Shown: positions 8,882 to 16,067 of the stretch, piece after piece
Layout: the number at the start of each line of letters is the position of its first letter
How positions within the stretch are numbered: position 1 is the first letter of the stretch
DNA from: Ramlibacter tataouinensis
Lineage (GTDB): Bacteria; Pseudomonadota; Gammaproteobacteria; Burkholderiales; Burkholderiaceae_C
DNA: 64,000 bases
Reading direction: 5' to 3'
Assembly: GCF_027941915.1 (NCBI RefSeq)
Contig: NZ_CP116009.1
Location: 1,984,001 to 2,048,000, forward strand
Notes under the pieces: generated by a model
Told to the model about the DNA's origin: nothing
The model's database searches: none
What the model saw: the letters and a program-made list of their open reading frames with translations, nothing else
Program-made: the position numbers and the translations under genes

Positions 8882-10309
8882 ATGCTGCCGCTGCGCCCTA
8901 GCCGCCTTTCGTTCCGCCCGCTGCTGCTGGTCGCCTTCGTGCTGGTGGGCGGGCTGCTGGGCGGCACCGCGCTGCGGGCGGTGGTCATCCTCGACCGGCT
9001 GATGGCGCAGAGCACGGCCGCCAGCGCCGCGGCACTGGACCTGACGTCCAGCGCCCAGACCCTGGCCGAGCGCACCCTGGACATGGAGCGCGCCGCCCGC
9101 CAGTCGCTGATCCTCAACGACGCGCAACTGCGCCGCCGCTACCACGAGGAAGCCGGGCGGGCCCGCGACGCGCTGCAGCGGCTGGTCGACCAGGGCCTGC
9201 CGCAGCGCCAGGCCCATCGATGGCTGGCGAAGATCGAAGTGGTCGACGAGCTGATGCAGGGCCCGGCCGAAACGGCGCTCGATCGCGAGCGCACCTCGGC
9301 CCAGCACTTCCGCGACTTCGACGGCATCAATTCCGGCATCGCGCGCGAGGTGCACCAGCTGATCGATGCGCGCAACAAGGCGCTGAGCCAGCGCCTGGCC
9401 GCCAGCCGCTCGCGGCTGATGCAGCAAGTGGTCTTCGCCATCGGCCTGGCCGCCCTGCTGGCGGCCGGCCTGGGCATCTGGCTGGCGCGGCCGTTCCAGC
9501 GGCTGGAGCGCGCCATCGTCGGCCTGGGCGAGAACCGGCTGGAGGTGCCGATCGACATCCAGGGCCCGGCCGACGTGCGCCGCCTGAGCCAGCAGCTGGA
9601 ATGGCTGCGGCTGCGGCTGACCGAGCTGGACGCCGACAAGGCCCGCTTCCTGCGCCACGTCTCGCACGAGCTGAAGACGCCGCTGGCCGCCTTGCGCGAA
9701 GGCGTGTCGCTGCTGGAGGAAGGCGTCACCGGCGAACTCAACACGCGCCAGCGCGAGGTGGCGCGCATCCTGCAGCACAACGCCGCGGTGCTGCAGGAGC
9801 GCATCGAGGCGCTGCTGCGCTTCAACGCCGCCGCCTTCGAGGCGCGCCAGCTGCAGCGCCGGCCGACCGAGCTGCTGGCCCTGCTGCACGAGCAGGTCGA
9901 GGCGCAGCGGCTGCAGTGGCAGGCGCGCGAGCTGGAGCTGGACGTCGAGGGCGAACCCGTGGTGGCGCCGGTCGACCCCGACAAGCTGGGCACGGCGCTG
10001 GCCAACCTGCTGGCCAACGCGATCCGCTTCGCCCCGCTGGGCTCGAGCGTGCGGGTGCGGCTGTCGCGCGCCGCAGGCCGCGCCCGCATCGACATCCAGG
10101 ACCAGGGCGCCGGCATCGCGCCGGCCGACCGCGAGCGCGTGTTCGAGCCGTTCTACCGGGGCGAGCGCCAGCCGGCCGACGCCGCGGCGGGCACCGGCAT
10201 CGGTTTGTCCATCGTCAACGAATACATTGCAGCCCATGGCGGCCGCATCGAACTGCTGGACGGCGCGGCGTCCGGCGCCCACTTCCGGATCGAACTGCCC
10301 CATGCCTGA
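8882..10309 (+). CDS. glrK: Sensor histidine kinase, GlrK/QseE type
   Basis: Membrane sensor kinase of 475 residues. There are two transmembrane helices (about residues 12-35 and 180-200) around a helical periplasmic domain, then a HAMP segment, the dimerisation box RHVSHELKTPLAALREGVSLLEEG with the phosphorylated His, and an ATPase domain (NLLANAIRFAP as N box, DQGAGIAP, GTGIGLSIVNEY). The position-specific clue is the order kinase, small lipoprotein, sigma-54 response regulator. This matches the glrK-qseG-glrR locus of enterobacteria, where the kinase reports envelope state. The start lies 12 bases after miaB and the stop overlaps the lipoprotein start. Call as kinase is firm; orthology to GlrK rests mainly on synteny. 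Confidence 0.85.
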   Translation: MLPLRPSRLSFRPLLLVAFVLVGGLLGGTALRAVVILDRLMAQSTAASAAALDLTSSAQTLAERTLDMERAARQSLILNDAQLRRRYHEEAGRARDALQRLVDQGLPQRQAHRWLAKIEVVDELMQGPAETALDRERTSAQHFRDFDGINSGIAREVHQLIDARNKALSQRLAASRSRLMQQVVFAIGLAALLAAGLGIWLARPFQRLERAIVGLGENRLEVPIDIQGPADVRRLSQQLEWLRLRLTELDADKARFLRHVSHELKTPLAALREGVSLLEEGVTGELNTRQREVARILQHNAAVLQERIEALLRFNAAAFEARQLQRRPTELLALLHEQVEAQRLQWQARELELDVEGEPVVAPVDPDKLGTALANLLANAIRFAPLGSSVRVRLSRAAGRARIDIQDQGAGIAPADRERVFEPFYRGERQPADAAAGTGIGLSIVNEYIAAHGGRIELLDGAASGAHFRIELPHA

Positions 10310-10916
10310 CTTCCTGACTCGAGCGATGCGGCGCTCCCTGCCGGCACTGGCCCTGGCCCTGGCCGCGGCGGCCACGCTGGCCGCCTGCAGCACGCCGCCC
10401 CCGCCGCCGACGCCCGCCGCCCCGCCACCGCCGCCGGTCGCCAGCGAGGCCACGCGCGAGGCGCCGGCGACGCCACCCGAGCCGGCCACGACGCTGCCGC
10501 CGACCGGCAACCTGCCCACCCAGCCGCTGGCCGCCGCCCTGGCCTATGCCGACCGCGTGCGCGGCGCGCCGGCCGCCGCCCTGGGCCCGGAAATCGCCCG
10601 GCTGTCGCAGCCGGGCGCGGCGCCCCTGGAGCAACTGCAACTGGCGCTGGCCCTGCAGCAGATGCGCACGCCGGCCGACAACGGGCGCGCCGCCCAGGTC
10701 CTGCAGCGCCTGCTGGCGCTGGCCACCGACGACGCCCGCGAGCTGCATCCGCTGGCCCGCCTGCTGCAGGCGCAACTGGCCGAGCAGCGGCGGCTGGAGG
10801 AAGCCGGCGAGCGCCAATCGCAGCAACTGCGCGACGCCCAGCGCCGCGTCGACCAGCTCAATGAACGGATGGAGGCCCTGCGCGCGATCGAGCGGCGCCG
10901 GCCCTCGAGGAACTGA
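10302..10916 (+). CDS. QseG-like lipoprotein between kinase and response regulator
   Basis: Predicted lipoprotein of 204 residues. The signal ends in LAAAATLAACS, a lipobox with the acylated Cys, followed by a Pro-rich linker of about 40 residues. The rest is helical, with heptad-like Leu/Gln-rich segments (LEQLQLALALQQM and a C-terminal RQSQQLRDAQRRVDQLNERM coiled coil). In E. coli QseG is an outer-membrane lipoprotein that binds the sensor QseE/GlrK; position, size and architecture fit that role. The ATG at 10302 overlaps the kinase stop; a second ATG at 10326 would give a shorter signal and is also possible. Sequence similarity to enterobacterial QseG could not be measured here. Confidence 0.72.
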   Translation: MPDFLTRAMRRSLPALALALAAAATLAACSTPPPPPTPAAPPPPPVASEATREAPATPPEPATTLPPTGNLPTQPLAAALAYADRVRGAPAAALGPEIARLSQPGAAPLEQLQLALALQQMRTPADNGRAAQVLQRLLALATDDARELHPLARLLQAQLAEQRRLEEAGERQSQQLRDAQRRVDQLNERMEALRAIERRRPSRN

Positions 10917-10917
10917 C

Positions 10918-12315
<1,398 letters not shown>

Positions 12316-12338
12316 AACCGGCGGCCGGGCTGCCGGCC

Positions 12339-12356
12339 TGTCGCCAGGCGGCGACG
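12339..12356. promoter_or_regulatory. GlrR-like upstream activating dyad
   Basis: TGTC-N10-GACG at 12339-12356 differs at one base from the E. coli GlrR site TGTC-N10-GACA. The core GTCGCC-AGGC-GGCGAC is a perfect 6-bp inverted repeat. It sits 110 bases upstream of the -24 element of the sigma-54 promoter, normal for an enhancer site. A weak glrR terminator without a T tract is the alternative reading. Confidence 0.5.
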
Positions 12357-12448
12357 AAATAGCAGGTTTTCCGCCGAGAACCGGTGCCGCCTTCCCGCCC
12401 GGCCGCCCGATCGCGCGCAAGTGCTTGATTCCAAAGGGAAAAGAAAGC

Positions 12449-12464
12449 TGGCATAGGGTTTGCA
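12449..12464 (+). promoter_or_regulatory. Sigma-54 promoter of opgGH
   Basis: TGGCAT-N5-TTGCA matches the -24/-12 consensus TGGCAC-N5-TTGCA at all but one position, with exact 12-base spacing between the GG (12450) and GC (12462). The predicted start of transcription, about 12 bases past the GC, falls at 12474-12476, on top of the annotated opgG ATG at 12475. Either the message is leaderless or translation begins further in. Confidence 0.72.
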
Positions 12465-12474
12465 CTAGGCGAAC

Positions 12475-14043
12475 ATGCCTTTGTGTTTGCGCCGCCTGCG
12501 CGCCGCCGCGCTGGTGGTGGCGGTCCTGCTGGCCGGAACCTTCTCTGCAGCCTCGGCCCGGGCCGCCTGGGGATTCGAACAAGTCGCGGAACTCGCCCGC
12601 GCGCGGGCGGCTGCGCCCTTCCAGGCGCCCGATTCCGCGCTGCCGCCGGCGCTGGCCCAGCTCGACTACGACGGCCTGCGCGACATCCGCTTCCGCCCCA
12701 GCCACGCGCTGTGGCGCGGCGCCTCGCCGTTCGAGGCCATGTTCTTCCACCGCGGCCGCTACCACCCGGAGCCGGTGCGCATCCATGAGGTGGATGCGGC
12801 CGGCCGGGCCCACCCGGTGCGCTGGCAGGCCAGCGACTTCGACTACGGCAAGAACACCCTGGCAACCCAGGTCTGGCCCGACCTCGGCCATGCCGGCCTG
12901 CGCATCCACTACCCGCTCAACACGCCGGCCTACAAGGACGAACTGATCGTCTTCCTGGGCGCCAGCTACTTCCGCGCGCTCGGCGCCGGCCAGCAGTACG
13001 GCCTGTCGGCGCGCGGCCTGGCGATCGACACGGCCGGCGCCAATGGGCCGGAGGAATTCCCGCGCTTCACCGATTTCTGGCTCGAGCGGCCCGACCCGCA
13101 AGCCAGCCAGGTGGTGGTGCATGCCCTGCTGGATTCGCCGCGCGCCAGCGGCGCCTACCGCTTCACCGTGCGGCCCGGCAGCCCGACGGTGGTCGAGGTG
13201 CAGGCCCGCCTGTTCCTGCGCGCCACCGACCGGCCGATCGCCACCCTCGGCCTGGCGCCCCTCACCAGCATGTTCCTGGCCGGCGAGAACCAGCCGCGCG
13301 AGGGCGACTTCCGGCCCGAGGTGCACGACTCCGACGGGCTGATGGTGGCCAGCGCCAGCGGCGAATGGCTGTGGCGCCCGCTGCTGAACCCGCAGAGCCC
13401 ACTCGTCACGAGTTTCAGCCTGGACGGGCTGCGCGGCTTCGGCCTGATGCAGCGCGACCGCTCGTTCGCCAGCTACGAGGACACCGAGGCGCGCTACGAG
13501 CGCCGGCCCAGCGCCTGGGTGCGGCCCCTGGGCGACTGGGGCCCCGGCCGGGTCGAGCTGCTGCAGTTGCCCACGCCGGACGAGACCCACGACAACATCG
13601 CCGCCTACTGGGTGCCGGCGCGCCTGCCCGCGCCCGGCCAGCCGCTGGACTTCGCCTACGAGCTGTCCTGGCAGGGCGACGAGCAGCAGCGCCCGCCGGC
13701 CGCCTGGGTGACCCAGTCGCGCATCGGCTTCGGCTACGTGCGCGCCGACCAGGCCGCGGCGCTGGCCGGCCAGGTGCAGTACGTCGTCGATTTCACCGGC
13801 CCCGCGCTGGACGCGCTGCCGGCCGACGCCCCGGTGCAGGCGATCGCCAGCAGCCCCGGCAACGGCGCCATCGAGCAGGCCATCACCTGGTTCAACCCCG
13901 CGACCCGCAGCTGGCGCCTGGCGCTGCGGGTGCGCCCCATCGACGCGTCGCAGCCGGTCGAGCTGCGCGCCTTCCTGCGTCACCGCGACGACATCGTGAG
14001 CGAAACATGGACCCACATCGTGCTACCCACCTCCGCCCCCTGA
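12475..14043 (+). CDS. opgG: Osmoregulated periplasmic glucan biosynthesis protein OpgG
   Basis: Periplasmic protein of 522 residues needed for synthesis and branching of osmoregulated periplasmic glucans. It has a signal peptide (AAALVVAVLLAGTFSAASARA) and the MdoG domain, with the recognisable segments YDGLRDIRFRP, FFHRGRYHPEPVRIHEV, GASYFRALGAGQQYGLSARGLA, SMFLAGENQP and LNPQSPLVTSFSLDGLRGFGLMQRDR. The ATG at 12475 gives a complete signal peptide and is preceded by AGGCG, but it coincides with the predicted sigma-54 transcription start. It overlaps opgH by 37 bases, indicating one operon. Confidence 0.93.
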   Translation: MPLCLRRLRAAALVVAVLLAGTFSAASARAAWGFEQVAELARARAAAPFQAPDSALPPALAQLDYDGLRDIRFRPSHALWRGASPFEAMFFHRGRYHPEPVRIHEVDAAGRAHPVRWQASDFDYGKNTLATQVWPDLGHAGLRIHYPLNTPAYKDELIVFLGASYFRALGAGQQYGLSARGLAIDTAGANGPEEFPRFTDFWLERPDPQASQVVVHALLDSPRASGAYRFTVRPGSPTVVEVQARLFLRATDRPIATLGLAPLTSMFLAGENQPREGDFRPEVHDSDGLMVASASGEWLWRPLLNPQSPLVTSFSLDGLRGFGLMQRDRSFASYEDTEARYERRPSAWVRPLGDWGPGRVELLQLPTPDETHDNIAAYWVPARLPAPGQPLDFAYELSWQGDEQQRPPAAWVTQSRIGFGYVRADQAAALAGQVQYVVDFTGPALDALPADAPVQAIASSPGNGAIEQAITWFNPATRSWRLALRVRPIDASQPVELRAFLRHRDDIVSETWTHIVLPTSAP

Positions 14044-16067
14044 GGCATGCCACCGAGGGCGACAGCGGCGGCGGCGCGCTGGCCGGCGGCACGGCGGCTG
14101 CCGTACCCGCGGCCCGGCGCAGCCGGCTGCGCGAGGAGCGCCACCCGAACGCGGTGACGGCTCCGCCGGTGCGGCGCGGCTCGATGCCGACCCAGCCCTG
14201 GCGCGGCTTCTGGAACAGCATCGGCACGGCCTCGCTGGAGATCGCGCACCGGCTGCTGCCCGGCGAATCGCCTGCCCGTCGCGCACCCGCGCGCACCCGG
14301 GCGCCCTGGGAGCGCGCGGCCACGCGCCGCCGCGCCGCCTTCGCGGCCATCGCCCTGCTCAGCACCGCGATCGCCACCGTGCTGTTCGCCAAGGCGCAGC
14401 CCGATTCGCCCAATCCCTGGCTGCAGTGGGGCCAGATCGCGCTGTTCGCGGCGCTGTCCAGCTGGGTGGTGACCGGTTTCGCCACCGCGCTGATGGGCTT
14501 CTGGGTGGTGCTGCGCGGCGATGCCCACGGGTTGACGGCGCGCTCGGTGCACAACCAGGCGCTGGCGCCGGAGGTGCGCACCGCGATCATCATGCCGATC
14601 TGCGAGGAGCACGTAGCCACCGTGTTCGCCGGCCTGCGCGCCACCTGCGAGTCGCTTGCCGCCACCGGCCAGGCCGGCCAGTTCGACGTGTTCGTGCTGT
14701 CCGACAGTGCCAGCCCGGAAACCGCGGCGGCCGAGCGCGCGGCCTGGGAGGAACTGCGCGCCGCGCTCGCCACCCAGCCGGGCGTGCAGCCCGAGGTCTA
14801 CTACCGCCGCCGCACCCGCCGCACCCACCGCAAGGCCGGCAACGTCGCCGACTTCTGCCGCCGCTGGGGCCGCGACTACCGCTACATGGTGGTGCTGGAC
14901 GCCGACAGCGTGATGAGCGGCGACTGCCTGGTCACGCTGGCCAAGCTGATGGAGGCGAATCCGAAGGCCGGCATCATCCAGACCGCCACCCAGCCGACCG
15001 GGCTGATGACGCTGCATGCGCGGGCGCAGCAGTTCGCGGCGCGCGTGACCGGCCGGCTGTTCACGCTCGGCCTGCAGTTCTGGCAGCTGGGCGAGTCGCA
15101 CTACTGGGGTCACAACGCCATCCTGCGCGTCAAACCGTTCATGGCGCACTGCGGCCTGGCGCCGATCCGCGGCACGGGCGGACTGGCCGGCGGGATCATG
15201 TCGCACGACTTCGTCGAGGCCGCGCTGATGCGCCGCGCCGGCTACCACGTGTGGCTGGCCCCCGACGTGGCCGGCAGCTACGAGCAGCAGCCGCCCGACC
15301 TGCTGTCAGAACTGCAGCGCGACCGCCGCTGGTGCCAGGGCAACCTGCAGAACGCGCGCCTGATGGCCGAGCCCGGCCTGCACCGGGTGCACCGCGCCAT
15401 GTTCGCCATCGGCGCCATGTCCTACCTGTCGGCGCCGTTGTGGCTGGCCTTCATCGTGTTCGGCGCCTCGCTGTGGATGTCCGGCGCGCGCCTGCTGGTC
15501 GACGACGCCGGCTCGTCCGGCGCGCTGGTGGGCCTGTGGATCTGGACGCTGTGCATGCTGTTCCTGCCGCGCGTGCTGGGCGTGGCCGCCGTGCTGCTGG
15601 GCCGCCAGCAGCGCGCATTCGGCGGCACCGGCCGGCTGCTGGCCAGCTCGCTGGCCGAGACCCTGCTGTCGCTGCTGCTGGCCCCGATCCGCATGTTGGC
15701 GCACTCGCTGTTCGTGGCGGTGGCGCTCACCGGCATCAAGCTGCACTGGCAGTCGCCGCCGCGTGAAGCGCGCGCCCTGGGCTGGGGCTACGCCGCCGGC
15801 CAGCTGCTGCCGCTCACGGCCGCGGTCGGCGCGCTGGCCGCCGCCGTCGCCCTGGTCGATCCCGAAGCCGTGGCCGCGCTGCTGTCGGTGGCCGTGCCGC
15901 TGCTGCTGTCGGTGCCGCTGGCGGTGTTCACCAGCCATGCCGGCCTGGGCGCCTGGCTGCGCCTGCGCGGCCTGATGCTGATCCCCGAGGAAGCCTGGTC
16001 GCCGCCGGTGCTGCGCCGCGCCCGGCTGCACGCCGGACGGGCGGCCCGGCTGCTGCGCGCCGCATAA
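14007..16067 (+). CDS. opgH: Glucan biosynthesis glucosyltransferase OpgH
   Basis: Inner-membrane family-2 glycosyltransferase of about 686 residues that makes the beta-glucan backbone of periplasmic glucans from UDP-glucose. Two N-terminal helices (about 110-170) precede the cytoplasmic catalytic domain: FVLSDSASPE, VVLDADSVMSGD (metal-binding Asp), GTGGLAGGIMSHDFVEA and the product-binding DRRWCQGNL. Several helices follow (SYLSAPLWLAFIVFG onward). The ATG at 14007 lies within the 3' end of opgG; a later ATG at 14184 would remove a low-complexity N-terminus and is an alternative. In E. coli OpgH also links glucose status to cell size via FtsZ; whether that holds here is unknown. Confidence 0.92.
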   Translation: MDPHRATHLRPLRHATEGDSGGGALAGGTAAAVPAARRSRLREERHPNAVTAPPVRRGSMPTQPWRGFWNSIGTASLEIAHRLLPGESPARRAPARTRAPWERAATRRRAAFAAIALLSTAIATVLFAKAQPDSPNPWLQWGQIALFAALSSWVVTGFATALMGFWVVLRGDAHGLTARSVHNQALAPEVRTAIIMPICEEHVATVFAGLRATCESLAATGQAGQFDVFVLSDSASPETAAAERAAWEELRAALATQPGVQPEVYYRRRTRRTHRKAGNVADFCRRWGRDYRYMVVLDADSVMSGDCLVTLAKLMEANPKAGIIQTATQPTGLMTLHARAQQFAARVTGRLFTLGLQFWQLGESHYWGHNAILRVKPFMAHCGLAPIRGTGGLAGGIMSHDFVEAALMRRAGYHVWLAPDVAGSYEQQPPDLLSELQRDRRWCQGNLQNARLMAEPGLHRVHRAMFAIGAMSYLSAPLWLAFIVFGASLWMSGARLLVDDAGSSGALVGLWIWTLCMLFLPRVLGVAAVLLGRQQRAFGGTGRLLASSLAETLLSLLLAPIRMLAHSLFVAVALTGIKLHWQSPPREARALGWGYAAGQLLPLTAAVGALAAAVALVDPEAVAALLSVAVPLLLSVPLAVFTSHAGLGAWLRLRGLMLIPEEAWSPPVLRRARLHAGRAARLLRAA

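Follow-up and report, generated by a model that had tools for sequence, protein, structure and literature searches.

A conserved GlrR-type sigma-54 promoter ahead of opgG-opgH, with a predicted leaderless opgG mRNA

Sequence comparison points to a complete and conserved GlrR-dependent sigma-54 promoter that probably drives opgG-opgH, with a transcript whose predicted start falls on the opgG ATG or no more than about 2 bases from it, so that OpgG would be made from a leaderless mRNA. We put the probability of this reading at roughly 85%. The presence, conservation, spacing and specificity of the promoter elements, and their association with glrR, are computed here. In the mechanism we propose, phosphorylated GlrR would bind two upstream sites, at 12272 and 12339, and IHF would bend the promoter DNA. 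GlrR would then activate sigma-54 polymerase, with presumed dependence on RpoN, to form an open complex at 12449–12464. The transcript, with a predicted 5′ end at the opgG ATG (give or take about 2 bases), would run into opgH, and OpgG would be translated without a leader. By this route the envelope-sensing GlrK-QseG-GlrR system, responding to a presumed physiological input, would control periplasmic glucan synthesis.

The window, by which we mean the whole stretch of 64,000 nucleotides analysed, covers positions 1984001–2048000 of a single-contig genome of 4.47 Mb. Its gene order is miaB, glrK, a gene in the position of qseG, glrR, opgG and opgH, followed by ffh on the opposite strand (Table 1). 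The GlrK-like protein is 32% identical to E. coli GlrK over 428 aa, and GlrR is 56% identical to its E. coli counterpart over 443 aa, with a near-identical recognition helix (21 residues compared). In NCBIfam the best match of GlrR is the GlrR model, at 609 bits and below the curated cut-off of 763; the next, NtrC, scores 414, or 195 bits lower. The protein in the QseG position resembles E. coli QseG weakly (30% identity over only 87 aa, E=0.002), and searches of it against Pfam and NCBIfam returned no match. MdoG and MdoH, recognised through Pfam and NCBIfam, are encoded in tandem, the arrangement that identifies an opgGH operon. The true start of opgH may lie upstream of 14184, within 14043–14184, as the residues preceding the called start, REERHPNAVTAPP, recur in relatives that have opgH only. 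Two rpoN genes are present in the genome, at 2168673–2169143 and 1458427–1458894.

Table 1. Genes and regulatory elements of the glrK-opgH region, in window coordinates.
Feature	Coordinates	Strand	Basis
glrK-like sensor histidine kinase	8882..10309	+	Pfam HAMP (below its cut-off), HisKA, HATPase
qseG-position lipoprotein-like gene	10302..10916	+	position; lipobox-like LAAC by eye
glrR, sigma-54-activating response regulator	10918..12315	+	Pfam Response_reg and Sigma54_activat; GAFT loop is GAFTDA
UAS1, GlrR-type site TGTCGCCGGATGACGACA	12272..12289	.	perfect TGTC-N10-GACA, within the 3′ end of glrR
UAS2, GlrR-type site TGTCGCCAGGCGGCGACG	12339..12356	.	TGTC-N10-GACG, conserved in relatives
IHF-type site CAAGTGCTTGATT	12418..12430	.	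strict consensus match, predicted
sigma-54 -24/-12 promoter TGGCATAGGGTTTGCA	12449..12464	+	matrix score and conservation
Predicted transcription start (A of opgG ATG)	12475	+	glmY geometry and conserved spacing; inferred
opgG (mdoG), periplasmic glucan biosynthesis protein	12475..14043	+	Pfam MdoG, E=5.6e-189
opgH (mdoH), membrane glucosyltransferase	14184..16067	+	NCBIfam MdoH 1026 bits, cut-off 829

The original prediction placed a sigma-54 -24/-12 element upstream of opgG, and it is present as described. On a home-made matrix, TGGCATAGGGTTTGCA scores 19.1 bits of a maximum 19.7, and the runner-up on both strands of the 64 kb reaches 13.5, which is 5.6 bits lower; the element also has GG-N10-GC. 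A consensus match by itself is no proof of function, because TGGCAYN5TTGCW has 3 matches genome-wide and its reversed control is equally frequent (3). The GlrR-like dyad that had been noted at 12339 is likewise present and conserved, as the second of two sites, but taken singly it is weak evidence. TGTC-N10-GACG occurs 139 times in the genome versus 197 for the reversed control, and TGTCGCN6GCGACA with at most one mismatch occurs at 44 places versus 70. We accordingly reject this dyad, UAS2, as stand-alone evidence, since by itself it is at chance level in this genome; the case for its reality lies in conservation and arrangement, not in the frequency of a single motif. Two elements had been overlooked earlier, namely UAS1 and the IHF-type site, the latter called with the IHF consensus YAANNNNTTGATW. 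UAS1 is an exact TGT-N12-ACA and UAS2 is one base off (ACG).

Conservation was followed in two sets of loci. The first set consists of opgG loci, and the named relatives among its sources include Ramlibacter, Hydrogenophaga, Polaromonas, Acidovorax, Rhodoferax and Ideonella; among those loci with a detectable glrR, 73 carry a sigma-54 site under a fixed rule and three (L013, L095, L027) have none under the search rule. Dereplication of the glrR-opgG loci left 62. Both TCGC-N6-GCGA and GTCG-N8-CGAC occur in 62/62 of these and TGTC-N10-GACA in 57/62, while the commonest dyad across 100 shuffles reached a maximum of 6. A strict IHF match is found in 58 of the 73 loci (shuffle mean 0.2, maximum 3). 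In the 34 opgG loci for which no glrR was detected, the UAS form is seen in 2 and the IHF site in 1; one of these loci (L042) has no upstream DNA. A sigma-54 score of at least 12 is reached in five of the 34 (L029, L032, L033, L034, L078), and L078, whose upstream contig is short, also carries UAS and IHF sites. L029 belongs to the same genus as the window and has no GlrR at E≤1e-100; its opgG is about 58% identical and is preceded by a sigma-54 match of 18.1 bits with the T at -78. Neither a UAS nor a strict IHF site accompanies that match, which perhaps serves another activator or is a relic.

The second set comprises 300 family genomes, at least 95% complete and drawn regardless of promoter. 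GlrR of at least 68% identity occurs in 86 of them, and in 81 of the 86 glrR is followed by opgG (45) or by opgH without opgG (36). By coordinates opgG is directly downstream in 44, the 45th being cut by a contig end. The sigma-54 site scores 11 bits or more in all 81 adjacent loci and 14 or more in 77, and shuffled spacers reach 11 bits in 27/1620. At least one GlrR-type site is present in 80/81 adjacent spacers and at least two in 60/81. The strict IHF site is found in 62/81 and absent from 19/81; a UAS and an IHF site occur together in 61/81, and two UASs plus IHF in 47/81. In two further genomes (G192, G335), where opgG is remote from glrR, opgG is still preceded by a sigma-54 site together with a UAS at -111, and one of these genomes adds a strict IHF site. 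Three others have glrR, then the promoter, then another gene. The conservation in relatives on which the original prediction had staked itself is therefore borne out, with the -24/-12 element, the dyads and the distance to the start codon all kept over 37 genera, although the loci are phylogenetically related and the counts are not independent. The proposal that GlrKR drives opgG-opgH gains support in that the promoter accompanies opgG or opgH next to glrR. It needs amending as to the gene served: opgG as a universal target is rejected, the first target homologue being opgH in 36/81 loci, and the likely target is better put as opgH, with opgG optional.

The combination of UAS2 and promoter is specific. 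A strict pattern, TGTCGCN6GCGAC-N75-105-TGGCAN6TTGC, has 36 matches in the 300 family genomes and none for its reversed control. Thirty-four of the matches begin 27–94 nt after glrR, and the other two precede the remote opgG of G192 and G335. In 299 genomes of the order the pattern has 13 matches (control 0), 11 of them outside the family, and all 11 are directly downstream of a glrR. Two of these 11 promoters are followed by opgG, three by a gene for a secreted BON/OsmY-like protein (by eye) and six by another or unidentified gene. GlrR proteins of 61–64% identity were also sampled (9 of the 13 below 68%), and all 9 come with a sigma-54 site scoring 11 bits or more and with one or more UASs. 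These arrangements suggest that GlrR keeps a promoter beside itself while the gene behind it changes. Within the genus, the 19 genomes with a glrR-opgG locus hold 31 exact TGTCGCN6GCGACA sites, 19 at the locus and 12 scattered, and 19 other genomes hold 16 such sites (all counted by eye). No second recurring target is evident in the genus with this strict motif, which would miss degenerate sites. A GlrR paralogue of about 60% identity, GlrR2, is found in the same genus, and TGTCGG-N6-CCGACA dyads adjoin it in 9/9 loci. In the 6 loci where its helix was recovered, this reads A[QHR]RNRTDFY in place of AGRNRTEFY, a possible change of specificity.

The conserved spacing of an ATG or GTG from the promoter, and the rarity of Shine-Dalgarno sequences, lead us to predict a conserved leaderless sigma-54 mRNA. 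Counted from the T of TGG, the annotated glmY start of E. coli is at 27 nt and the opgG ATG of the window at 26 nt. In the second set, an ATG or GTG lies 26–29 nt from the -24 element in 63/81 loci (37 of them at 27), comprising 35/45 opgG and 28/36 opgH loci and spread over 29 of the 37 genera. The background for ATG or GTG is 8.8% per 4-nt slot further downstream. In the first set the corresponding figure is 68/73 opgG loci, or 69 if L091 is included, where a TTG at 24 was the codon tallied and an ATG is present at 27 as well. Shine-Dalgarno 4-mers are found ahead of the ATG in 5/63 loci, and the window has AGG only, 5 nt before the ATG. The leaderless opgG mRNA that had been suggested is thus supported by the geometry of 63 of the 81 loci, but as a universal arrangement it is rejected, 18/81 having no ATG or GTG at 26–29. 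These 18 fall in 11 genera, of which 3 also hold loci with the leaderless geometry, and two of them have a degenerate -24 (CGG). In three loci of the first set (L096, L100, L112) the next ATG is at +68 from the T.

The first open reading frame behind the promoter is not always the same. We looked at 20 opgH-only loci in detail, and ATG stands at 26–29 in 20/20. It opens opgH in 8, an ORF of 66–68 codons in 8 and an ORF of 21–29 codons in 4; three loci of this last kind have a GTG at 28–29 in the frame of opgH, which makes their first ORF ambiguous. The start spacing is kept for all three kinds of first ORF, opgG, opgH and small. The ORF of 66–68 codons (SPSFALRPQRD ... KRFPAIGDTP) is itself conserved; it is found in loci that lack opgG, after the GlrR promoter and before opgH, and it has a conserved C-terminus and differences of 0.29, 0.23 and 0.39 per codon pair at the three codon positions, and a Pfam search gave no useful family (best E=0.051, below its cut-off). 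At 22 GlrR-type promoters that have other targets or lie outside the family, ATG at 26–29 is found in 0/22 and GTG in 4, and a Shine-Dalgarno sequence with an ATG further down is found in 15/22. Given the promoter, we regard leaderless initiation of OpgG as likely. A broader idea, for which we see even odds, is that the GlrR promoter carries an ATG at +1/+2 that would serve whichever first ORF follows, with the promoter kept and the target swapped between lineages; periplasmic glucan synthesis would then be under a leaderless switch gated by transcription. If the start codon is built into the promoter in this way, only transcripts begun there would be translated well.

How else might the locus be read? 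One reading takes the dyads for terminators or for repeats that arose by chance, and the -24/-12 match for an accident. It agrees with the single motifs being no more frequent in this genome than their controls, and we consider it next to negligible. The letters of the dyads, not pairing alone, are conserved in all 62 dereplicated loci, and the dyad and IHF site are confined to 2/34 and 1/34 of the opgG loci without a detected glrR. In aligned spacers UAS2 is followed by A-tracts, not T-tracts, and the terminator scan around the spacer gave a single terminator-like match, a weak one at 12467–12480, which leaves a terminator reading of the dyads unsupported. A promoter that depends on sigma-54 while answering to an NtrC-type protein other than the adjacent GlrR is a more serious idea, as the family genomes encode several sigma-54 activators (93–224 first-look candidates per genome among those listed) and some have a GlrR paralogue. 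We nevertheless find it improbable: within TGTCGC..GCGACA the sites are identical in every letter to those of E. coli GlrR, every one of the 36 strict family matches is beside glrR or before opgG, the 11 outside the family all directly follow glrR, and the GlrR2 paralogue is flanked by sites of a different sequence.

The likeliest competitor, although still unlikely, accepts the GlrR/sigma-54 promoter and holds that opgG is not leaderless. Translation would then begin at a downstream in-frame start or on a second, upstream transcript, and CATG near +1 would reflect a preference of the initiation region. In favour of this scheme, opgG might start at a TTG, at 12481 or 12487, AGG stands 5 nt ahead of the ATG, read-through from glrR may occur, and 18 loci of 81 have no ATG or GTG at 26–29. 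Against it, the roughly 93 nt that follow the projected start contain no further in-frame ATG, GTG or TTG in 17/73 loci, and 15 of these loci have none upstream either. GTG replaces ATG at the same position in some loci, and the spacing stays constant while the N-terminal length varies and the first ORFs differ. A simple scan of 12200–12600 gave no sigma-70-like site.

If this reading is correct, GlrKR would have a clear role outside the enterobacteria, in many bacteria of soil and water, namely the control of osmoregulated periplasmic glucans, and the leaderless mRNA made by sigma-54 polymerase would be both conserved and sharply testable. Among the matches listed from the open-licence literature, no paper deals with GlrR control of opgGH or with a conserved leaderless sigma-54 mRNA, and the main text of PMC3162934 does not mention glucan, mdoG, opgG or GlrR. 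The genes are those of the known osmoregulated periplasmic glucan operon opgGH (mdoGH), and the predicted GlrR/sigma-54 control is what differs. In two further reports, GlrKR is noted in beta-proteobacteria (PMC8895600) and GlrR is listed in Acidithiobacillia (PMC12194929). Leaderless mRNAs are familiar in proteobacteria: 171 such transcripts are described for S. meliloti in a paper that also cites effects of non-AUG starts and of start-codon proximity (PMC3616915). Like these, the predicted opgG mRNA would have its start codon at the 5′ end and no Shine-Dalgarno sequence. What may set it apart from the S. meliloti cases is its sigma-54-type promoter and an arrangement that persists over 29 genera even though the first ORF differs.

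The closest known systems are the GlrR-activated promoters of E. coli. According to PMC6075780, GlrR (QseF) activates an rpoE promoter there, and glmY has three UASs with the consensus TGT-N12-ACA and is helped by IHF. The rpoE case resembles ours as an envelope-related output of GlrR through sigma-54, although the gene differs. GlmY was not found in the present genome by a search that is positive in E. coli, with none at gathering score in the window, and no GlmY relic was found. In E. coli MG1655 the UASs of the glmY promoter stand at -230, -197 (TGTCGCTTTCTGGCGACA) and -134, its IHF match is at -177, and the T of TGGCACAGTTACTGCA is at -27. In the window, counted from the predicted start, UAS1 is at -203, UAS2 at -136, the IHF site at -57 and the T at -26. 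The activator family and the TGTCGC-N6-GCGACA core are common to both promoters. Each also has a pair of UASs near -200 and -135, an IHF-type site and, 26–27 nt ahead of the start, a sigma-54 element. The third UAS, at -230, is a feature of glmY, and the window has two. The placement of IHF differs, the strict site of the window being close to the promoter and that of glmY between two UASs; in the 81 relatives an IHF match lies between the UASs in 33 and near -24 in 54. The promoter is downstream of glrR here, whereas in E. coli it is upstream of glrK. If our reading holds, E. coli and the beta-proteobacteria would have a promoter architecture in common, and its output would have changed from an sRNA, as in E. 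coli, to structural genes, here opgG-opgH or opgH.
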